Made by a program: the position numbers and the translations under genes
The notes under the pieces: generated by a model
Database searches by the model: none
What the model was told of the DNA's origin: nothing
The model's input: only the letters and a program-made list of their open reading frames with translations
Part shown: positions 1 through 44,800 of the stretch, one piece after another
Layout of the letters: each line of letters begins with the position of its first letter
How positions within the stretch are numbered: the stretch's first letter is position 1
Source of the DNA: Candidatus Methanoperedens nitratireducens
GTDB lineage: Archaea; Halobacteriota; Methanosarcinia; Methanosarcinales; Methanoperedenaceae
DNA: 64,000 nt
NCBI RefSeq assembly: GCF_900196725.1
Contig: NZ_FZMP01000112.1
Span: forward strand, 1-64,000
Reading direction: 5' to 3'

Positions 1-26
1 CCGTCCAATCCGTGTCATCCGTGTTC

Positions 27-212
27 TATTACAATTGGAAATGTAACATCACTACTGAGGGCGATACCTTCGATACATATGTCTGCCATATAGCAAGGGA
101 AACCTTCAAGGGGGCGCTCGGCTACGCTTTCGGGAATAAGGCGGAATTGAATATTAAGCATTTATTAACCCACGGCGATAGTTTTTGCGAGGTGATTGTA
201 CGGATGCCCTGA
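27..212 (+). pseudogene. 3' fragment of a V4R-domain regulator gene
   Basis: The last ~55 codons closely match the C-terminus of the 480-residue regulator at 797-2239: both carry an EG-TFDT-VCH motif, RETFKGA, YAFGN-AEL and the terminal HGD-FCEV-IR. No N-terminal part exists and no start codon fits the homologous segment. Upstream of position 27 the sequence is a dispersed repeat end (ATCCGTGTCATCCGTGTTC-like) that also occurs near 49686-49704. It is best read as a truncated paralogue left by rearrangement or repeat insertion. The 5' part could lie outside the window, but the reading frame is already non-homologous before codon 10. Confidence 0.6.
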
Positions 213-330
213 GGAGTATGTCAATAATGGCAGGAGCCTGGCATCAATTGCAACATAATAGCATATTTTAACGATTAAAGCCATCAATCGGTCTGTTATC
301 GCTTGCCTGAAGATACTTTTTTTTGACTTT

Positions 331-420
331 TTTTTGGCATTTATGCCAATTTTATGCCATTGATTGGCATTATTTGCTGTTCTATGCCATAATATGCTAT
401 TCATTGGCTTATCTTGCTAA
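331..420. promoter_or_regulatory. Helically phased array of 10-bp WTGSYAT repeats (putative operator)
   Basis: Nine consecutive 10-bp units carry a seven-base core close to WTGSYAT, starting at 334, 343, 354, 364, 374, 384, 394, 404 and 414. The core is itself nearly palindromic (TTGGCAT/ATGCCAA), so 334-349 and 354-370 are inverted pairs. Weaker copies sit at 238, 248 and 258. The array ends about 65 bp before the first gene of the operon at 485. One copy per helical turn suggests cooperative binding along one DNA face. The ribbon-helix-helix protein encoded at 797 is the obvious candidate ligand (inference). Confidence 0.6.
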
Positions 421-484
421 ATTTTTGTCAAATATTCTTTTAGCCTTGACATTAGATAGTCTTGACTAAAGAAGGTGGTCAAAT

Positions 485-787
485 ATGAAATATTGGATCA
501 AGTATGTTGCGGCTGCCATTTGTGGGACTATCGCAGGAGCGGCTTATTTCCTTCCCTCCGGGATGTTCCTCGCTTTTGTTGCAGGGTGGCTGTTCCTTAT
601 CCCGGCGGCGGGTATTGCACTTCTTGCCTACGGGCTGCGGGAACATGTGAAAGACAGAAAGAACAGAATCATGGTATCCATCAAACCAAACGAAGCAATG
701 AGGGCGCTGGTTCGCAGGGAAATGGAACTCCAGAGAGAAAAAGAACTGCTGTTAAAAGAACTCAGCAACGGGGTAAAACGGGAGTAG
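485..787 (+). CDS. Small membrane protein, first gene of the V4R-regulator/cytochrome operon
   Basis: A 100-residue protein with two hydrophobic segments at about residues 5-23 and 28-53, separated by a short LPSG turn, followed by a basic, highly charged helical tail (residues 54-100, rich in Arg/Glu/Lys). This looks like a hairpin-anchored protein with a cytoplasmic coiled-coil-like tail. A ribosome-binding site AAGGTGG lies just before the ATG. The regulator gene begins 9 bp downstream, so the two are probably co-transcribed. I recognise no family; it could be a membrane partner of that regulator, which is inference from position only. Confidence 0.7.
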   Translation: MKYWIKYVAAAICGTIAGAAYFLPSGMFLAFVAGWLFLIPAAGIALLAYGLREHVKDRKNRIMVSIKPNEAMRALVRREMELQREKELLLKELSNGVKRE

Positions 788-796
788 TGGGAACCA

Positions 797-2239
797 ATGA
801 TTGTCACTAGGCACATCTCCCTTGATAACGACTGCATTGAAAAGATGGGACCCTATGTTGAAAAACACAACGGCAATTTCAGTGCTGCGATCAGGGAGAT
901 AATCGACCGGGCAGGGAAATACAGTACCCTCAAGAACCTGCAAATAATAGACAATTCACTGTTCAAATGGATGCTGAACGAGACCGACGGGATGCTGGTG
1001 CCCGAAAAAATACTGGATGACCTGATTGATCCCATGCTGATAAATTCAATGCAAAAACTTGAAGAACATCTTAACCGCAGGTTCGGTGAGCTTGAGTGGG
1101 ATATAAACCTCGCCCTGAAATGTGATAACGATACCTATCCCTCTGAAGTATTGATAGAAATAAAAGGCGCTGCCCAAAAAATAAAGTTCGCCGCCCGGAC
1201 GCTTGCCCAGTACCTGGTAAAGAATTCACCCGAGCATGCACCCCTTGAGATTAAATCTGTTTTTAGCTCGGACGGGTGCATAAAAGTCGAGTTATCCAGA
1301 TCGAATAAAAAAGATGCACAGAACAGCCTGATTACTTTTTTTGGCGGGATGAACGAGGTAATAAAAGCCATAAAAAGCCGCCCGGCTTTCTGGAGAGCCG
1401 TAATCAGCGGACATCTTCTGAGCAATTACAATATGGTCACTGTCCACAGGAATTACTTTGAGGACTTACTGGCAGGTAAAGTGCCAATGGGAGAAATAAC
1501 GATAGAGACCCTTGCTAAAAAACCACTGCAAGAGATTCCGCTAAAAGAAATGCTCTCCCTGATAAAGGAAGTTTATGAGGCATCAAGGGTTACGGACAGG
1601 GTAGAGATTGACAGGGAGAACATAATATTATTCCACAATTATAGAAATAAGGATGTAATAGAAAAACTGAAAAAAAGCATTACCACGCTGCTGGAAGCCA
1701 ACGGTCACCTGTACGATGCCAAGTCGACAGCCAATATGATTGTGCTGACACACAGACCTGATGTGGGCATAAAGATCAATGAAATCGTAAGCAATCTCAA
1801 GATCAGCAACAGCAGGGTAGACCAGGACCTGATAATGTTCATGGCTTTCCTGAAAGGGCTGAAAAACATTCCGGACATACCATTATCCCTGACATTTCTT
1901 GGCAGGAGGATGGGCAGGTCCCTGCTGCAGGAGTACGAGAAGGAGAACAATGTCAGGAACTGGGAACTGACAAACTTCCAGAAAGCTCTGGAAATCATCG
2001 ATTCCAAACTCCACAGGGATAGCGAATGGAAACTGGAAGGGAAAAGCCTGCTGTACACGGTCAGGAAATGCAATATCGTTGCCGAGGGGAGCACATTCGA
2101 TACCTGCGTCTGTCATGCCATACGGGAGACTTTCAAAGGGGCAATGAGCTACGCTTTCGGGAACAGTGCGGAACTTGAGATCAAAAAATTGCTATCACAT
2201 GGTGATAATTTTTGTGAGGTGGTAATACGAGTGCCATAG
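797..2239 (+). CDS. RHH-V4R domain transcriptional regulator (MsvR-like sensor domain)
   Basis: A 480-residue protein. Residues 1-45 resemble a ribbon-helix-helix DNA-binding unit: a short beta segment VTRHISL followed by two helices around SAAIREIIDRAG. The middle (about 60-370) is helical and unrecognised. Residues 380-480 match the V4R fold: an RETFKGA helix, GN-AEL, and the diagnostic closing LSHGDNFCEVVIR. The sensor region has a Cys before NI, a CVCH motif and the final FCEV cysteine, candidates for thiol redox or metal sensing. In methanogens the V4R regulator MsvR senses redox state through cysteines but uses an ArsR-type DNA-binding domain, so this domain pairing differs. It precedes genes for a cytochrome/NrfD complex, suggesting control of that respiratory module. 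The domain calls are by eye. Confidence 0.7.
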   Translation: MIVTRHISLDNDCIEKMGPYVEKHNGNFSAAIREIIDRAGKYSTLKNLQIIDNSLFKWMLNETDGMLVPEKILDDLIDPMLINSMQKLEEHLNRRFGELEWDINLALKCDNDTYPSEVLIEIKGAAQKIKFAARTLAQYLVKNSPEHAPLEIKSVFSSDGCIKVELSRSNKKDAQNSLITFFGGMNEVIKAIKSRPAFWRAVISGHLLSNYNMVTVHRNYFEDLLAGKVPMGEITIETLAKKPLQEIPLKEMLSLIKEVYEASRVTDRVEIDRENIILFHNYRNKDVIEKLKKSITTLLEANGHLYDAKSTANMIVLTHRPDVGIKINEIVSNLKISNSRVDQDLIMFMAFLKGLKNIPDIPLSLTFLGRRMGRSLLQEYEKENNVRNWELTNFQKALEIIDSKLHRDSEWKLEGKSLLYTVRKCNIVAEGSTFDTCVCHAIRETFKGAMSYAFGNSAELEIKKLLSHGDNFCEVVIRVP

Positions 2240-2309
2240 AAGTTAATGATAACAGGAGAAGAGATCAAAAAACCGTTGAGCGGGAAAAATACAGGAGGGA
2301 GTGAGTAAG

Positions 2310-3122
2310 ATGAAAACATTGCTTGAAAACATAACATTCGTAAAAGGAGTAGAATATCTTATAGTCGTTGCATTTTGTCTGGGATTTATCGCGTTCTGGA
2401 TACTGGTGCACAACAGGGAGATCGAAGCAAAAAAGATTGTTTCAGTCGCTATCCCGCTTTCCCTGGTCTTCAGCGGAGCTGCTGTTGTACTTGCCACGAA
2501 CGGCAGCCGGGAGCCTGCTGTCAGCACCACCATCCCGGAATCTGCAATCCCGGAGTATTACAGTAACGGCAGCCCTGCCACTTTCGCAGCACATAACCCG
2601 GATAACTGGCTTAATGTCAGTAACCCGGAATATCTCTCAATAACCTACGGACCTGCGGTGAAATTCCACCGGATAATGAGCGATAAAGTAAGTTGCTCAA
2701 CCTGCCATCACAACAGCGGGAACGAGGTCCGTGCATGCAAAGATTGCCACAGTGCTCCGTTTAACCCCCAGAATTCAAGTAAGCCTGGTCTTAAGGCTGC
2801 CTACCATCAGAGGTGCATGGACTGCCATAAGGAGTTATTCAATGGCCCGGAGAGTTGTACCCATTGCCATGATGGAGGGGCTCCCGGCTCCCTGGCGGTT
2901 TCTGCTCCCGACCGTCCCCACGGGCTTACGTGGGAAACCTGTTCCGGATGCCATGCAGATGGAATTCCGGGAGGAGGGCAGGAGGCTAAGATAGTGTACC
3001 ATGACAACTGCCTCCGGTGCCATACAAAAAGCATCGCAGGCGCTGCAGCGGTGCCTGCCGACCATGCAGGACGCGCAAGTAATACATGCCAGGGATGCCA
3101 CAAGCCGTCGGGAGGAGGATAA
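2310..3122 (+). CDS. Membrane-anchored seven-heme c-type cytochrome
   Basis: About 270 residues. Two hydrophobic stretches (roughly residues 10-30 and 42-60) anchor the N-terminus. The exported part holds seven CxxCH heme-attachment motifs between residues ~130 and 265 (CSTCH, CKDCH, CMDCH, CTHCH, CSGCH, CLRCH, CQGCH), with extra His residues available as distal ligands, as in class III-type cytochromes. The ATG at 2310 is preferred over a GTG at 2301 because GGAGGGA (2294-2300) abuts the GTG but sits at normal spacing from the ATG. The iron-sulfur and NrfD genes follow directly, so it is the likely electron-accepting or -donating cytochrome of a quinone:cytochrome oxidoreductase. Confidence 0.85.
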   Translation: MKTLLENITFVKGVEYLIVVAFCLGFIAFWILVHNREIEAKKIVSVAIPLSLVFSGAAVVLATNGSREPAVSTTIPESAIPEYYSNGSPATFAAHNPDNWLNVSNPEYLSITYGPAVKFHRIMSDKVSCSTCHHNSGNEVRACKDCHSAPFNPQNSSKPGLKAAYHQRCMDCHKELFNGPESCTHCHDGGAPGSLAVSAPDRPHGLTWETCSGCHADGIPGGGQEAKIVYHDNCLRCHTKSIAGAAAVPADHAGRASNTCQGCHKPSGGG

Positions 3123-3125
3123 AAT

Positions 3126-4034
3126 ATGGTAACCAGAAGAAATTTCCTGAGGATCGGGGGCTCGCTCATTGCCCTGAGTGTCGCGGGGAATAGCGTAAAA
3201 GCTGCCGAGGATTTTGAGGGCAACCCGGATCGTCTTGGAATGCTCTCGGACATGACAAGGTGCATCGGCTGCCGCCGCTGTGAAGCTGCGTGCAATAAAG
3301 CCAATAAGCTTTCACCTCCGAAAACATCGTTTGAAGATACTTCGGTCTTTGAGGAGAAAAGAAAACCCTATGTGGCTGACGTACAGTCTTACACAGCGGT
3401 CAACCGCTACGAAGTGAATGGGAAAACAGTTTACCGTAAAGTACAGTGCATGCACTGCGATGAGCCGGCATGCGCTTCCGCCTGCCCTGTAGGCGCGCTT
3501 AAGAAATCCCCGGAAGGACCGGTGACCTGGAACGATAAGGTGTGCATCGGATGCAGGTACTGCATCATAGCCTGCCCGTTCTATGTCCCTGCCTTTGAGT
3601 ATTCAAGCGCATTTGATCCGAAAATACAGAAATGTTTCATGTGCTACCAGAACAGGATAACAAAGGGCATTATCCCGGCATGCGCCGAGGCATGCCCTGT
3701 GGAAGCGATCACGTTCGGTAAGAGAAGCGATCTTATCAAGCAGGCATGGCTCCGCATATGGGATAATCCGGATAAGTATATCGACCACATCTATGGTGAA
3801 CATGAGGCAGGTGGAACAGGCTGGCTGTATATCTCAGGTGTTCCTTTCTCTCAGCTTGACTTCCAGATGGATATAGGGACGACATCGTATCCAAAGTACA
3901 CCAAGGATTTCCTGTCTATGGTCAATCTCACCCTTGTTTCATGGCCTGCGCTGCTGGGAGGGTTTTACCTGGCATCCCGCAGGTCGCATACGGCTCATGA
4001 TGAAAAACCAGATGAGGAGGTGGATGAACAATGA
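3126..4034 (+). CDS. Tat-exported HybA-like four-[4Fe-4S] ferredoxin subunit with C-terminal anchor
   Basis: 302 residues. The N-terminus carries a twin-arginine signal (RRNFLRIGG plus hydrophobic stretch). Cysteine groups follow for four [4Fe-4S] clusters: CIGCRRCEAAC (residues 46-56), CMHCDEPACASACP, CIGCRYCIIACP and CFMCYQ...CAEACP, the order seen in HybA/DsrO/TtrB-type electron-transfer subunits. A hydrophobic segment near residues 262-282 provides a C-terminal membrane anchor, as in HybA. It starts 3 bp after the cytochrome gene and overlaps the NrfD gene by 4 bp. Role: transferring electrons between the NrfD-type subunit and the cytochrome on the outer face of the membrane. No catalytic molybdopterin or hydrogenase subunit is nearby. 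Confidence 0.85.
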   Translation: MVTRRNFLRIGGSLIALSVAGNSVKAAEDFEGNPDRLGMLSDMTRCIGCRRCEAACNKANKLSPPKTSFEDTSVFEEKRKPYVADVQSYTAVNRYEVNGKTVYRKVQCMHCDEPACASACPVGALKKSPEGPVTWNDKVCIGCRYCIIACPFYVPAFEYSSAFDPKIQKCFMCYQNRITKGIIPACAEACPVEAITFGKRSDLIKQAWLRIWDNPDKYIDHIYGEHEAGGTGWLYISGVPFSQLDFQMDIGTTSYPKYTKDFLSMVNLTLVSWPALLGGFYLASRRSHTAHDEKPDEEVDEQ

Positions 4035-5314
4035 ACGAATATCCAGGTGAGTATGTAAAAAAACAATATATAGAGAACGAGATAACACCGGGCAGGGAAG
4101 AGACCGGTGCCGAGATAATAAGTAACTGGCTAAGTGAAAAATTCTTCATGGGTCTTACCCCGAAAGAATATCTGAAGACTCTCATCACGCCGTTAAACTT
4201 TGTCGCAGGCATTATTATCGCCGTCGGGATGTTCCTTATATTCCAGCGGTTCCTATTCGGTCTTGAAACAATAACCGAAGCTTCCAACGAGCAGCCGTGG
4301 GGACTTTTCCTGAGCTGGGGGCTCTTTTCCGGCGTGCCTTTCTCAGCGTCGGGATTTATCATAGGAACGGCTGTGTACATCTTCGGGCTCAAGAAATACC
4401 AGCCTATAGTCAAGAATGCCATTTTGCTGGGTTTCCTGGGATACCTGTTCGCCGTGATATTCCTGATGATCGACCTGGGAAGACCATGGAGGATATATTA
4501 TCCGATGTTCATCTCGTTCGGCACAGCCTCGGTCATGTTCCTTGTGGCGTGGCATGTGGCTCTTTACCTCTCGGTCCAGTTCCTTGAGTTCTCACCTTCC
4601 ACACTCGCCTGGCTGGGCTGGAAGAACGTTCGAAAGATAGCCGTGAGCATGACCCTGGCTCTTACTATATTCGGCGTGATGCTTTCCACGCTTCACCAGT
4701 CGGCCCTGAGCGCGATGTTCCTCCTTGCACCGGGAAAGCTTCACCCGCTATGGTACACGTCATATCTGCCGTGGCTGGCTTTCATCTCGTCCATAGGAGG
4801 CGCGATTGCCCTGGTGATCGTGGTAACCAGGCTCACGCAGGTTTTCCTGAATGACAGGGCTGATTCCCACTACCTCTCGAACCTTGACGACATTACAATC
4901 GGTCTTGGCAGGGCGGCGGCTTTCGTCCTGTTCACATACGTCGGGCTGCGCCTGATCAGCGTAATTCACGAGGGCTCATGGAAGTACCTGAATACGCCCT
5001 TTGGCTACTGGTTCCTTGTAGAGATACTTATCCTGGGCATTGTTCCCTTCCTGTTCCTGCATGGGGTCCAGAAGAAGAACGTAAGGCTTGTCCAGTACTC
5101 CGCAGCATTGACTATGCTGGGCATTATTATGAACCGTTTCAATATATCCCTGATAGCCTTTAACTGGAAACTGCCGGAAAGGGGTCTGTTCTTTTGGAAA
5201 GAAGTACTGGTCGTCATGGCTGTTGTGACCATCGAGATATTGGTTTACCGCTGGGTCGTGAACAGGATGCCGGTGCTGAGGCAGCATCCGGACTATATCG
5301 GGGATGAGCACTGA
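4031..5314 (+). CDS. NrfD/HybB-type integral membrane quinone-interacting subunit
   Basis: A 427-residue polytopic protein with roughly ten hydrophobic segments from residue ~55 onwards; the first ~45 residues are hydrophilic. Landmarks of the NrfD/PsrC/HybB family include the SWGLFSGVPFSASGF stretch, a DLGRPWR motif in a loop, and HQSALSAMFLL. These subunits exchange electrons with (mena)quinone and pass them to an iron-sulfur partner, here the HybA-like protein encoded just upstream with ATGA overlap. With the seven-heme cytochrome it forms a Hmc/Qrc/Nrf-like module lacking its own substrate-reducing catalytic subunit. Confidence 0.85.
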   Translation: MNEYPGEYVKKQYIENEITPGREETGAEIISNWLSEKFFMGLTPKEYLKTLITPLNFVAGIIIAVGMFLIFQRFLFGLETITEASNEQPWGLFLSWGLFSGVPFSASGFIIGTAVYIFGLKKYQPIVKNAILLGFLGYLFAVIFLMIDLGRPWRIYYPMFISFGTASVMFLVAWHVALYLSVQFLEFSPSTLAWLGWKNVRKIAVSMTLALTIFGVMLSTLHQSALSAMFLLAPGKLHPLWYTSYLPWLAFISSIGGAIALVIVVTRLTQVFLNDRADSHYLSNLDDITIGLGRAAAFVLFTYVGLRLISVIHEGSWKYLNTPFGYWFLVEILILGIVPFLFLHGVQKKNVRLVQYSAALTMLGIIMNRFNISLIAFNWKLPERGLFFWKEVLVVMAVVTIEILVYRWVVNRMPVLRQHPDYIGDEH

Positions 5315-5315
5315 C

Positions 5316-5420
5316 TGCTGGCCCGGTCAATCCGCCACACACGTATGGCTGCGCCATACGTGGATTCCCATTTTTGAATACTGCTGGCTCGGTCACTACT
5401 CCGCACTGGAAGGTGCGGAG
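5316..5420. repeat. Two tandem repeat units, each ending in a perfect stem-loop
   Basis: Two units begin with the same 15 bases apart from one C/T change (CTGCTGGCYCGGTCA at 5316 and 5381). The first contains a 10-bp perfect inverted repeat, CACGTATGGC (5340-5349) and GCCATACGTG (5353-5362), with a 3-nt loop. The second contains CTCCGCAC (5399-5406) and GTGCGGAG (5413-5420). They start directly after the NrfD stop codon. They could be a transcript-end stabilising structure or a repeat element; only the first is followed by a short T run (ATTTTTGA, 5371). Confidence 0.6.
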
Positions 5421-5525
5421 CATCAGAGTGAGTGCATGAGTATTTCCTATCGTTTATTCGTGGTTTTAGCTTTTGTCAGTAGATGGGGGCACGGGATATG
5501 TATTGGAATAGAAAAGATAGACATC

Positions 5526-5715
5526 TCATATTTCGAAATTCTCAATAGCTTTGCTTATGCCCCAGACTTCGATTATCTTTTCCTCGTTTATTTTTATCAA
5601 AATGCCCGTCATTCGTGATTAGAACTGCGCCTTCCTGAAGACAGGAAACGGCGTTATGATGTCTATTAAATAACTTCTCTTCTGGGAAATACGATTTGTA
5701 GAGGCGCAAAGTTTG
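5526..5715 (-). pseudogene. Relic of a PIN-domain (VapC-like) toxin, C-terminal part
   Basis: Read on the minus strand, one frame encodes an HHNAV...EGAVLITNDGHFDK segment. After a one-base frame change at an A-rich run near 5585 the next frame continues with EEKIIEVWGISKAIENF and a stop at 5526. The pattern (conserved NAV helix, VLITND strand with the final acidic residue, then an IEVW strand) is typical of PIN-domain C-termini. No N-terminal half with the first catalytic Asp was found. The remaining sequence between 5420 and 5800 shows nothing else recognisable. Confidence 0.45.
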
Positions 5716-5791
5716 CAAGTAAGCTATATTATATAAATAATCTCAGCATTTATTGAACAACATACGCAACAGCTTTCCATTCAACCGAAAG

Positions 5792-5823
5792 TTTTAAATT
5801 CATTGATATCATATCTCGATATC
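5792..5823 (+). promoter_or_regulatory. TATA box and GATATC palindrome in front of the PadR-region genes
   Basis: A TTTTAAAT TATA-like box (5793-5800) is followed by two GATATC boxes, 5805-5810 and 5818-5823, separated by 7 bp, forming an inverted pair near the expected transcription start. The first start codon is at 5837, giving a very short leader. A PadR-type regulator is encoded 760 bp downstream and is a plausible ligand (inference). Confidence 0.4.
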
Positions 5824-5836
5824 GGAATTTGATATT

Positions 5837-5944
5837 ATGATTGACAAAGATTTTTTGGAACGAGCTTATAACCCCAGCTCAGAAACCCCTGGCGATTTAT
5901 ACAACCGACTCTTCGGCTGGGAAAAGAAAGAGGAAACTATATGA
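5837..5944 (+). CDS. 35-residue protein translationally coupled to a membrane protein gene
   Basis: The ATG at 5837 opens a 35-codon frame ending in TGA at 5942-5944, overlapping the next gene's ATG (ATGA). The product is polar (begins MIDKDF, ends GWEKKEETI). The first six codons and the preceding GATATT are almost identical to the start of the PadR gene at 6583 (also MIDKDF), so this may be a remnant of a duplicated PadR gene start whose frame was taken over, or a real leader peptide coupling translation. I cannot tell these apart from sequence alone. Confidence 0.45.
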   Translation: MIDKDFLERAYNPSSETPGDLYNRLFGWEKKEETI

Positions 5945-6564
5945 ACCCTTTTTACTACGAACTCATCAATTATGTAATGTGGGCGGTCACTGCTCTCCTT
6001 ATTTTTGTCCGCTACAAAAACCAAAGAGACTACTGGTATCTCTTGATTGGTTGGTCGCTCGTCTTTCCACTCGACTATATATCTGATAAATATAGCCTGT
6101 TTCTTAGATACAATGAGGGCTTTACTATGCTCTTTGATCGCTACCCTTTGTTTCTACTTCCTGCCTTTGGGTGGTTCTTCGCCCTTCCGACAATCCTTTG
6201 CTTGCGCTTTAAGAACAAGATTGATGCTCTACATCTGTGGCGGAGAGTTGGCATTTTGTTTGTAGTCTTTTTGGCTTTGGGCTTTGTAGCAGAGATTGCC
6301 TCCACGTCGTCTGGTTATTATGCTTATTACTGGCCAAGCACGTGGATGATTAACGGAGTCGTGCCCTTGTCTATTCCTATTACTGACTCCATATACCTTG
6401 TAATGCTGTATTTCGGACACAAAGTGGCAATAGAGTATTCGGTAAACAAAAAATGGATATCCGGGTTTCTTATTCACATAGGCACTTACTATGTGGTGTT
6501 TGCACTTGGAATTTTAATAACTTGGCTTTTCGTCTGGGCCCTGGGAATCAAGCCGACATGGTAA
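5941..6564 (+). CDS. Polytopic membrane protein of unknown function
   Basis: 207 residues with about six hydrophobic segments (approximately 9-24, 34-50, 74-92, 103-123, 137-158 and 173-200). Several aromatic-rich loops are present (YYELINYV, GYYAYYWP). The pattern loosely recalls small carotenoid-type or lycopene-cyclase-like membrane proteins, but no motif is strong enough for a name. The start overlaps the stop of the short upstream frame, and a PadR regulator follows 18 bp downstream. Confidence 0.65.
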   Translation: MNPFYYELINYVMWAVTALLIFVRYKNQRDYWYLLIGWSLVFPLDYISDKYSLFLRYNEGFTMLFDRYPLFLLPAFGWFFALPTILCLRFKNKIDALHLWRRVGILFVVFLALGFVAEIASTSSGYYAYYWPSTWMINGVVPLSIPITDSIYLVMLYFGHKVAIEYSVNKKWISGFLIHIGTYYVVFALGILITWLFVWALGIKPTW

Positions 6565-6582
6565 CCATCGTAATCTGATATT

Positions 6583-6885
6583 ATGATAGACAAAGATTTT
6601 TTCCTTGGATTTATAAAAGTCCATATACTTCATCATGCCAGAAAAGAAGAGATTTATGGAGTAGAAATTTTAGATGAATTGAGAAGGCATGGCTATTCCC
6701 TGAGTCCAGGTACGCTGTATCCCACTCTTCATCTGCTGGAAAGAAAGGGTTACTTGAAAAGTAGAAAGGAAACCGTAAATGGGAAGGTAAGGAAATATTA
6801 TGCAATCACGCCAGCAGGTTCAGAAATGCTGGAAAAGTCAAAAATGAAAATTAGAGAACTTGTGGATGAGGTTTTGGGTAGTTAA
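6583..6885 (+). CDS. PadR-family transcriptional regulator
   Basis: A 100-residue winged-helix protein: helix-turn-helix around EEIYGVEILDELRRHGYSLSPGTLYPTLHLLERKGYL, with the PadR hallmark of SPGTLYP before the recognition helix and a wing ending in RKYYAITPAG. The short C-terminal helix serves dimerisation (PadR-s1 type). It sits between an unknown membrane protein and a cation exchanger and probably controls one or both. The upstream GATATT box before the ATG repeats that at 5831. Confidence 0.85.
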   Translation: MIDKDFFLGFIKVHILHHARKEEIYGVEILDELRRHGYSLSPGTLYPTLHLLERKGYLKSRKETVNGKVRKYYAITPAGSEMLEKSKMKIRELVDEVLGS

Positions 6886-8337: not shown

Positions 8338-8793
8338 TCACAAACCCCGTACATAAGGACGAGGCCTGTATATAGCGTTTTTTGCATGGTGTATATCCTG
8401 AGTTTCAATATACTTGCTTACAACTTCCCACCCATTTCCCACGCTTCCATGAAAACAACTTGGCGCCCAGAGATGGTCTCCGCACCATTCTTTGAGATGA
8501 GGGAAAGCTTCCCGTAATCTCTTGCTCGAAACTCCTTTTATCTTCTTCGCGATATAGCTCAGAGAATATTTTGGAGGATACCGGAAGAAAATATGGACAT
8601 GGTCGGGATTTATGGCAATCTCGATTATTTCGATGCCCATTTCCGCACATGTTTTACAGATAATGCCCTCCGCAATCATTGCGACATCGTCCACCAGTAT
8701 CTTTCCCCTGTACTTGGGAGCGAATACAATGTGATCGGACAATAAAGATACCGTATGTCTGTCGTGGCGGAGTTCTTTATTTTTCGTGTTCAT
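8338..8793 (-). CDS. tnpA: IS200/IS605-family TnpA (Y1 HUH transposase)
   Basis: 151 residues, the usual length for a single-strand transposase of the Y1 family. The HUH metal-binding motif is HVHIFF, and the catalytic tyrosine lies in the C-terminal VSKYIETQ helix; the WAPS-F segment between them is also conserved. All key residues are present, so the gene looks intact. No TnpB gene is adjacent. Confidence 0.9.
   Translation of the reverse strand: MNTKNKELRHDRHTVSLLSDHIVFAPKYRGKILVDDVAMIAEGIICKTCAEMGIEIIEIAINPDHVHIFFRYPPKYSLSYIAKKIKGVSSKRLREAFPHLKEWCGDHLWAPSCFHGSVGNGWEVVSKYIETQDIHHAKNAIYRPRPYVRGL
8338..8793 (-). mobile_element. IS200-like insertion sequence, ends not resolved
   Basis: A lone Y1 transposase gene without accessory gene, typical of IS200 elements, which have subterminal hairpins rather than terminal inverted repeats and leave no target duplication. 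I could not assign either hairpin with confidence, so only the gene extent is given. Confidence 0.55.
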
Positions 8794-41893: not shown

Positions 41894-44800
41894 TCACGAC
41901 AGATTGCTTATCGGTCTGTTCATGAAATTATTATTTGTGGAATTCTCACCTTCTGCAATATTGATGGCCTTAACAGTAGCGCTGGTGGGTACGAAACCAT
42001 CCTTTAGCGTTTCCATGAGGATATAACTCCCTGCTGTTAGATTTTCGAAACTGTAAAACCCGTTTGTATCCGTGGTAGTTTCTTTATTCATTCCAACAGT
42101 TTCTGCTCCGGTCCCGATCAGCTTGATGTTCCAGTTCTCTATGCCCATTTCTCCAGGATCCCATACACTGTTTCCATTTGTATCATTTACCTTGAAGCCT
42201 GAGATGCTGCCGGCTGCAGGTGTTGGAGTTGGCGATGGTGTTGGCGATGGTGTTGGTGTCACTGTGACTTGATTTAGGAAGTTCACATTCGTTACATCCT
42301 TATTTTCGACGGTTATCACCCTGGATGTGGAGTTGGTAGGAGTATATCCTGCTCTTATTTCCTCAGTTACATTATAGGCACCCGGGGTAAGGTTCGTGAA
42401 CTGGTAGAAGCCTGAAGCATTGGTCGATGTACTGTTTATTTGTGTGCCTGTGTAATCCAGAAGCATGATATTCCAGTTCTCTATACCCGTTTCTCCAGGC
42501 TCCCATACACTGTTGCCATTTGTGTCATTTACCTTGAAGCCTGAGATGCTGCCAGCCTTGGGTGTTGGAGTTGGCGTCGGAGTCGGAGTCGGAGTAGCTG
42601 TTGCAGTTACTGTTGGTGTCGCTGTTGCAGTTACTGTTGGTGTCGCTGTTGCAGTTACTGTTGGTGTCGCTGTTGCAGTTACTGTTGGTGTCACTGGCGT
42701 ATTTGTGAAGTTTATGTTCGTGATGTCCTGACCGGCTATGGTAACATTCTGAGAAATCGAGCCATTGGGAGTAAACCCTGCTCTTGTCTCCTCGACCACA
42801 ATATAGGTGCCGTTTACCAGGTTCGGTATCAGGTAGTAGCCTGTCGTATCAGTTGTGGTATTGGATACCGGAATGCCTGTTGTGGCATTCTCAGCCGAAA
42901 TTAGCCAGCCCTGAATGCCATCACCTGTAGTGCTGTTTATCTTGAATCCCGATATGTTGAATGTCATCACCGGCGTCTCGCCCTGCCCGAGGGATGCATT
43001 GGCTTCTTCTGCAAGCCTCGCTGAATCATTGAGCAGATTAATCGCCTTTTGCGGATCATGCACGCCCCAGCTCCGGTCGTTCCTTACCTGGTAAAGTTTA
43101 AAGAACGCCTCTGCAAGCTTATTTCCGCTCAGGTTCTTCTCGCCTGTGGAGGCATTATATATGTTCCAGGCGTTCTCAACCGTATCATTGGTAGCATTCC
43201 ATTTTGTCTGGATCTCTGTCTGGATGCTCATGATCTTATTGCTGATAGTGCCGGTCTGGGACCCCTCTGCATGGCAGCCTGAGCATGCTGTACCATTCCA
43301 TGAGCCGTCGCTCTGCAGTCCTGTTACATTAACCTTGAAAGTATGCCCTGTTACTTTTTGACTGTCAGGCAGCACAGGCTCTGTAGTATTCGCTGGATCA
43401 ATCTGCTTGATATACATATGGCATGAAGCACACTCGAACTTCAGGTTCGATTCCTTGAAGGAACCAAGGAACATCTCTTTTTGAGTCGAGATATGCGGCA
43501 CTACAGCGCCGTGCGGTCCGCGTCCTGTCCAGCCGGGTACTGAAGTATCCGGTCTGTTTTCATGGCAGTTAGTGCACAATCCTGTTGTCGTCGCTTCCAT
43601 GGTATAGTTAGCCCGATAACCGAACGGTCTGGGTAATGCATCCCGATCGTACCATGCATAGGGTTTTTGCGTTCCGAACGCCTGTTCTGTCCTGGTAAGC
43701 CAGTCTCCCATGTCGTGGATATTATGACAGATAGCGCAGGTAACGCCCTTGTAGTCTTCAGGCGCTATAGTCGTTGTCTCGTTCTGAGGATCCCAGTTAA
43801 TCGGCGAGTGGCATCTGGCACACCTTGAAGTATTTTCCGGAGAGCCTTCCTCCACAAAATCAGTATTATTATGGCGGCTTGCCTTCCACTCCTTGACCAC
43901 AGGAACTACTGAGAACCTGCTGTGGTTCAAATTCTGATCGCTTGTAACATGGCATGCTGTTCCGCGCGAGCACGTAGCACTTGGGAAGTTATTTTCATCC
44001 TTTACGTTGAAGGAATGGTTCTTCTGAGCGCCTGCCATGTGGCACTCGATGCATGTGGCCGGTTGTAGCCCAAGCCCTGGATAATTCTTTCTGGCATGGG
44101 AAAGGTTAACCTCGCCTATGTGGCCCAATCCGTGGTTATAGTGGCAGTTAGAGCAGAGCACTTCAGATATAGGACCGGTCACGTTGATCGGCCCGGGATA
44201 GCTCTCGTCCCTGTCGTATATCAGCGCGGGTGTCCTGAGCGTATCATAGATATCTTTACCTGCTTCCCTGCTGGCACTTGAGTTAAATAAACTATTCTTT
44301 GCATCTTTTACATCCGCCATCTTAGTTGCATTGAAACCTCCCGGAGAGAGCAGCTCCCTGTACTGATCATCAGACGTATTGTGAGGATTGTGGCAGCTTG
44401 CACACACCACATTGATAGCGGTCTCACCAGTCACAGTCCTGTTTTTAGCATAATCGAACGGCGAATGGCATTTCAGGCATTCTGCTGGTGCTTCAAGAGG
44501 CGGCGAATGAGCGCTTGATAGCCATGTGCCCTGCCTCGTTGATCCGTTATGGCACTGCAGGCATACCTGCTCGGAAACGTTAGCCTCTACCTGGTGCCCA
44601 TTGCCTGCCGGTCCGTGGCATTCCTCACATGCAATACCAGGCTCACTCCATGTCCCTACTATACCGGGTAATCCGCTCTGGTTCCCGGAAGCGTTATAAC
44701 CTGTAGTATGGCAGCTTCCGCATGTGTATTGCCTGGGGCCGTAATCTGCAAAAGTCTGGTTCTCTGCGAAGTACCTCTTGAACAGATATCCTGATTCATT

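Follow-up and report, generated by a model that had tools for sequence, protein, structure and literature searches.

A helically phased array of TGNCA boxes precedes a respiratory operon in Methanoperedens and is a probable operator of its RHH-V4R regulator

Results and Discussion

The promoter of a respiratory operon in Candidatus Methanoperedens nitratireducens carries an array of short, self-complementary boxes placed one per helical turn. The array is conserved in the family and lies next to a gene for an RHH-V4R regulator almost without exception; these two features of the sequence make it very probable that the array serves the regulator itself as a multi-site control switch. The features discussed here lie near the start of the stretch that was analysed, which comprises 64,000 nucleotides and is referred to as the window:

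18..212, + strand, 3' end of a tandem regulator paralogue (found with tblastn; 67% identical over 64 aa; the contig begins inside the gene)
335..419, no strand, upstream phased array of nine TGNCA-type boxes, one per helical turn, register conserved
426..430, no strand, phased box TGTCA, just upstream of or overlapping the BRE-TATA region, 11 bp after 415
431..442, + strand, putative TATA-like core promoter element AATATTCTTTTA, AT-rich, assigned from orthologue conservation and distance to the start codon
447..451, no strand, promoter-proximal box TGACA (TTGNCAT), 21 bp or two turns past 426
485..787, + strand, small membrane protein of 100 aa, with an N-terminal hydrophobic region that fits two TM segments and a charged C-terminus
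797..2239, + strand, RHH-V4R regulator of 480 aa, with a predicted N-terminal ribbon-helix-helix and a predicted C-terminal V4R/Bet3-like domain
2301..3122, + strand, multihaem cytochrome c, class III/c7-like, with an N-terminal HmcD-like segment
3126..4034, + strand, Tat-type 4Fe-4S protein, HmcB-like (384 bits, curated cut-off 420)
4031..5314, + strand, NrfD-family quinone-interacting membrane subunit, HmcC-like (416 bits, cut-off 550)

A Phased Array of Self-Complementary Boxes

The array lies beyond chance expectation, and its unit is the self-complementary pentamer TGNCA, extended to WTGNCAW. The nine TGNNN pentamers start at positions 335, 344, 355, 365, 375, 385, 395, 405 and 415, and each core is TGNCA or one or two changes away from it, the exact boxes lying mostly upstream (335-389) and the less exact ones at 395-419, closer to the promoter. 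As TGNCA is its own reverse complement, each box is two-fold symmetric and the array has no strand. A preliminary description of the sequence had listed nine WTGSYAT cores, with coordinates that begin at the preceding W, and had placed eight of them in strict 10-bp register; all nine are present and the register was borne out, the box at 344 being 1 bp off. The repeat unit proposed there is real, although WTGNCAW, being self-complementary, describes it better, and the list of sites had overlooked two further in-phase boxes at 426 and 447. The weaker copies placed at 238, 248 and 258 did not hold up: they do not share the phase of the array, and a phased score taken from 219, over a stretch that contains them, is 23, within the maxima of shuffled windows.

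Counting TGNCA matches at nine positions with strict 10-bp spacing gave the array a phased score of 28 out of 36. When the intergenic region was shuffled 5000 times with dinucleotides preserved, every shuffle fell short of this score (maximum 24), and the top phased score across 200 shuffled 64-kb windows was 25. Within the organism's own 3.5-Mb genome, five phased TGNCA boxes at up to 3 mismatches occur only at the array; four phased boxes at up to 2 mismatches were not found elsewhere in it, and this pattern revealed no wider regulon there. A tandem-repeat artefact was considered and rejected, because TRF did not report 331-420 as a tandem array and marked just a short 11-bp repeat at 315-336; the array is therefore a phased motif and not a slipped repeat. 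No Rfam RNA families were found within positions 1-6000.

The Series of Boxes Extends through the Core Promoter

Beyond the nine upstream boxes, the series that begins at 335 runs on through the core promoter, where the boxes at 426 and 447 bracket a TATA-like region. The AT-rich element AATATTCTTTTA fills the one turn that the array skips, and by its position and conservation this element (431-442) is the likely TATA region. Further on, the start codon at 485 is preceded by a Shine-Dalgarno-like AGGTGG at 473-478. The box at 426 reads TGNYA in 13 of the 15 non-redundant orthologues, while the box at 447 is the most conserved site of all (15/15) and its type is the only one retained by most paralogues of the small gene outside the operon. 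Small genes of the 485-787 type occur in 29 of 31 genomes, often in several copies. We rejected the idea that the promoter-proximal sequence is a general promoter element, as TTTTAN3TTGNCATTN2ATA occurs exactly only twice in the genome, both times before this type of operon, and looser matches to it in the genome were no commoner than those of a reversed control.

The Register Is Conserved across Orthologous Promoters

Arrays in the same register precede the orthologous operon, taken as the 2-TM protein, the RHH-V4R regulator and the HmcABC-like cytochrome/FeS/NrfD genes, in at least 17 further non-redundant loci from two genera. According to the preliminary description an operator ought to recur upstream of orthologous operons, and it does so in the same register, including in the second genus of the family (G064), which has both the operon and the array. 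We aligned 19 orthologous promoters, 15 of them non-redundant, without gaps and anchored on the 447 box. Over the array part the orthologues share a mean identity of about 52%. The linkers drift while the box positions stay, and information content is highest at a period of 10.0-10.25 bp (reached by 7 of 2000 permutations). When the window set the register and was itself left out, 16 of the 17 non-redundant arrays had the best of their ten possible phases at 0 or +1. Five arrays (L024, L029, L048, L055 and L099) have the block moved by +1 as a unit relative to the promoter box, with its internal spacing intact. Orthologues share ancestry and such counts overstate their independence; for this reason we used the linker columns and the promoters of paralogues as controls. 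With three or more short boxes at constant spacing and in a conserved register, the array has the layout expected of a phased RHH operator array.

The same alignment bears on a DNA-shape or archaeal-histone positioning signal (WW/SS at 10 bp) in place of a specific operator. Methanosarcinales possess histones, and the alternation of GC-rich cores with AT-rich spacers at 10 bp is the classical nucleosome-positioning pattern. However, the cores are base-specific (TG..CA): position 2 of the box is G in 65% and C in 7% of cases, and position 4 is C in 57% and G in 6%, a preference that a simple WW/SS nucleosome or curvature signal would not be expected to show. Single bases are moreover conserved across sequences that are 52% identical, and the array is confined to this operon, so that we regard a positioning signal as very improbable.

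The Long Array Is Linked to the Regulator-Encoding Operon

A blind scan for five phased TGNCA boxes matched 13 of 31 Methanoperedens genomes, and all but two of the places inspected precede the pair formed by the small-protein gene and the regulator gene. One exception (L051, in G013) is a small gene with a short array and without an adjoining regulator gene. A match on contig C249 of G007, with 3 mismatches and between unrelated genes, was rejected as a true array; it is probably due to chance, since the reversed-pattern control also yields three places in the 31 genomes.

Promoter classes differ strongly in their phased scores. A score at p<=0.05 was obtained for all 23 operon promoters scored, for 2 of 14 promoters of other small genes, for 7 of 12 promoters of upstream-sister regulators and for none of 12 promoters of stand-alone regulator paralogues, setting the operon promoters apart from the other classes (Fisher, 8e-10). 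The distribution of a single TTGNCAY close to the start differs from this: it is present in 22/23 operon, 13/14 other small-gene, 9/12 upstream-sister and 0/12 stand-alone regulator promoters. This comparison indicates that the promoter-proximal box is the shared core and the long array an elaboration of it that goes with the promoter from which the regulator and the respiratory genes are expressed. The upstream-sister promoters bear partial arrays together with the same core box. A full-length sister regulator precedes the array in relatives (L013-L017, L021, L024, L025, L029, L032, L035 and L041), and in L017, L025, L029, L035 and L041 the end of a third regulator copy is visible too.

The regulator family itself extends to other families of the order (93/150 genomes), and TGNCA arrays were not found upstream of these distant regulators. 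Nine stand-alone RHH-V4R paralogues (L026, L028, L030, L033, L034, L036, L038, L039 and L040) have a different, GCAAAATATATACG-like promoter, with AAAACGGGG-like repeats 8-9 bp apart in the leader that perhaps represent another type of operator. In the organism's own genome, a further regulator paralogue (G000:C97:8570-10005; L004, L005) is interrupted by in-frame stops.

The case for an RHH-V4R binder draws mostly on this linkage, and the boxes could in principle serve a different transcription factor, for example one of the Lrp/AsnC type or another dimeric regulator. Lrp-family proteins likewise use helically phased sites, and the array in G013 stands without an adjoining regulator gene. Against such a factor, the array tracks the regulator-encoding operon over 31 genomes, is detectable nowhere else in its own genome, and appears in partial form, with the same core box, before sister regulators; in addition, the 10-bp spacing of the pentamers suits RHH dimers. 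We therefore consider a binder of another kind quite unlikely.

The Regulator Combines RHH-Like and V4R-Like Domains

The preliminary description had named an RHH-V4R regulator in the downstream operon, and our results agree with both parts of this assignment. In the AF2 model of the N-terminus, residues 1-10 are extended and are followed by helices at 11-23 and 28-40/46, which is the arrangement of the ~45-residue beta-alpha-alpha domain of MetJ/Arc/CopG regulators. A Foldseek search with this model returned SvtR and CopG first and then other RHH folds, at TM scores of 0.5-0.6 and an E value of about 1.4, a low significance that is expected of only 49 residues. The family RHH_1 was matched with a best E of 0.0017 in one family member, hhalign against a five-member RHH set gave P=0.002 at a probability of 13%, and no relevant Pfam family was assigned to the regulator of the window itself. 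Each of these results is weak, but they are concordant and consistent with an RHH fold at the N-terminus.

For the full model, Foldseek matched Bet3/TRAPPC3 (E=5e-4, prob 1.0), the MopR sensor (5kbg) and H-NOX, and family members gave weak profile matches to PF02830 (E=0.23) and TRAPP. We read the full-model matches as membership of the V4R superfamily, the modelled C-terminus having the V4R/Bet3 alpha-beta fold. The model also displays an H-EE-H-EE pattern three times, and three tandem V4R repeats were considered and rejected, as profile comparison of the thirds detected no similarity between them. All 31 closer regulators in the alignment have Cys425, Cys439 and Cys473, as does every Methanoperedenaceae member that was compared, and only a distant paralogue (L007) lacks them; the three cysteines may form a redox or metal site.

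Residues 6-8 (H-I-S) are conserved throughout the family, with I7 and S8 invariant and H6 at 90% or more. The candidate DNA-contact residues, proposed by analogy with CopG (T4, H6 and S8), are much alike in paralogues without TGNCA boxes at their own promoters, so that covariation cannot match the protein to its site.

A Proposed Mechanism of Autoregulation

We consider it probable, on balance, that 331-452 is a multi-site operator to which regulators of the RHH-V4R family (797-2239, 18-212) bind cooperatively, repressing their own operon. This agrees with the preliminary description, which had suggested an autoregulatory, filament-like operator for a respiratory operon. Of the two parts of this proposal, binding of the array by the RHH-V4R family has a strong likelihood, and, given binding, repression is likely to be the main effect. 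RHH dimers insert a beta-ribbon into the major groove and are commonly in contact when they occupy adjacent sites. Each WTGNCAW box would take one dimer of the RHH-V4R protein or its tandem sister, with two beta-strands entering the major groove; because a spacing of 10 bp brings successive dimers to one face of the helix, contact and cooperative binding would be possible, and dimers in contact along that face would make up a short protein filament. Nucleation would take place on the strong boxes upstream (335-389), from which the filament would extend across the weaker ones at 395-419 and 426, past the TATA-like element, to TTGNCAT at 447. When complete, it would exclude TBP/TFB and shut the operon that encodes the small membrane protein, the regulator itself and the Hmc-like complex. 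The signal would probably enter through the V4R domain and its three conserved cysteines, and redox state, a metal or a small ligand is our guess at the signal.

Several known systems share parts of this design. The met boxes of MetJ and the heptads of omega (pSM19035) are tandem short boxes that each take one RHH dimer cooperatively, and the met box is self-complementary, as is TGNCA. Their spacing is 8 bp and 7 bp, respectively, so that successive dimers wind around the DNA, in contrast to the 10-bp spacing on one face here; the additional domain of these proteins also differs from V4R. In ParR-parC of type II plasmid partition, RHH dimers likewise sit at their own promoter, on arrays with a repeat of 10-11 bp (PMC5016525). 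That system has a centromere function with the ParM motor, whereas the present locus has neither a motor protein nor a plasmid context.

MsvR of methanogens is a redox-sensitive autorepressor with a three-cysteine V4R domain, whose boxes overlap BRE, TATA and TSS and block TBP/TFB (PMC3729527). The regulator of the window resembles it in having a V4R sensor domain with three conserved cysteines, although their spacing differs (C206/C232/C240 in MsvR, C425/C439/C473 here). MsvR has an HTH-type domain and two or three boxes without a phased array; as the DNA-binding domain here is RHH-like, we do not classify the regulator as an MsvR.

The closest parallel is with archaeal RHH proteins that bind with high affinity away from the promoter and spread over degenerate sites to BRE/TATA, excluding the preinitiation complex (PMC5569661). 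AvtR and SvtR, from archaeal filamentous viruses, share the RHH fold, autoregulation and distal sites that spread to BRE/TATA, features predicted for the present system, and SvtR is the best Foldseek match of the regulator's N-terminal domain. By analogy, the anatomy of the array fits this published spreading model. AvtR and SvtR differ in being small viral proteins without a sensor domain, in contrast to a cellular RHH-V4R protein of 480 aa with a respiratory operon, and their sites are imperfect inverted repeats; no strict array of ten or more 10-bp boxes has been described for them.

AvtR protects ~100 nt and activates at low but represses at high concentration (PMC5569661), which raises the alternative of a dual switch, in which one and the same regulator acts as an activator while its occupancy is limited to 335-419 and as a repressor once it reaches 426 and 447. 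The main array stops just upstream of BRE/TATA, a usual position of an archaeal activator, and the box matches weaken closer to the promoter; on this reading, paralogous promoters that have a single promoter-proximal box would undergo repression but no activation. Activators, too, can use arrays placed upstream of a TATA box, which we have counted against a purely repressive operator. Against a dual switch, it is the promoter-proximal box that nearly all paralogues have kept, as would fit repression. We thus view a dual switch as unlikely and prefer repression by spreading.

Each element of the system has a precedent, and as far as the open-access literature shows, their combination is undescribed: a cellular RHH-V4R regulator, eleven one-per-turn boxes running through an archaeal core promoter, and a respiratory operon. 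The genomes of Methanoperedens archaea contain genes for several electron-exit complexes that serve methane oxidation, and in the open-access literature we found no paper that names a regulator of the choice between them, nor one on such a regulator in Methanoperedens. The array thus supplies a defined DNA target together with a defined candidate family of regulators. As paralogous promoters carry one, few or ten-plus boxes, they also offer a ready-made series in which the dependence of cooperativity on site number and helical phase could be tested. A tentative and rather doubtful extension is that the system represents an undescribed archaeal class, in which an RHH-V4R protein that senses redox state or metals through its three cysteines polymerises through the TATA region, one box per turn, and sets a sharp redox threshold for one among several competing electron-exit complexes of methane-oxidising archaea; paralogous promoters with one box would then respond gradually.

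Operon Genes and Neighbouring Sequences

The preliminary description had called the downstream operon respiratory, and its genes do resemble those of an HmcABC-type menaquinone:cytochrome c complex. The HmcB and HmcC matches lie below the curated cut-offs, so the genes are only Hmc-like. NrfD/FeS/cytochrome clusters in Methanoperedenaceae have been described as menaquinone:cytochrome c oxidoreductases (PMC7327174; PMC7082337). No Pfam or NCBIfam family was found for the small membrane protein at 485-787.

A short contig of the organism's own genome (G000:C211; L002/L003/L006) carries the same operon with a broken regulator frame, and its promoter differs very little from the one in Methanoperedens sp. 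BLZ2 (L041); this copy probably reflects a strain mixture or bin contamination (5.18%). Further along the window, a small ORF at 6583-6885, adjoining membrane-protein genes, has by eye the look of a PadR-type winged-helix regulator, and an ORF at 8338-8793 on the minus strand resembles an IS200/IS605-type HUH transposase, with a NPDHVHIFFRYPP motif read by eye. A 24-bp tandem repeat of 4.2 copies with 98% matches lies at 42597-42696.
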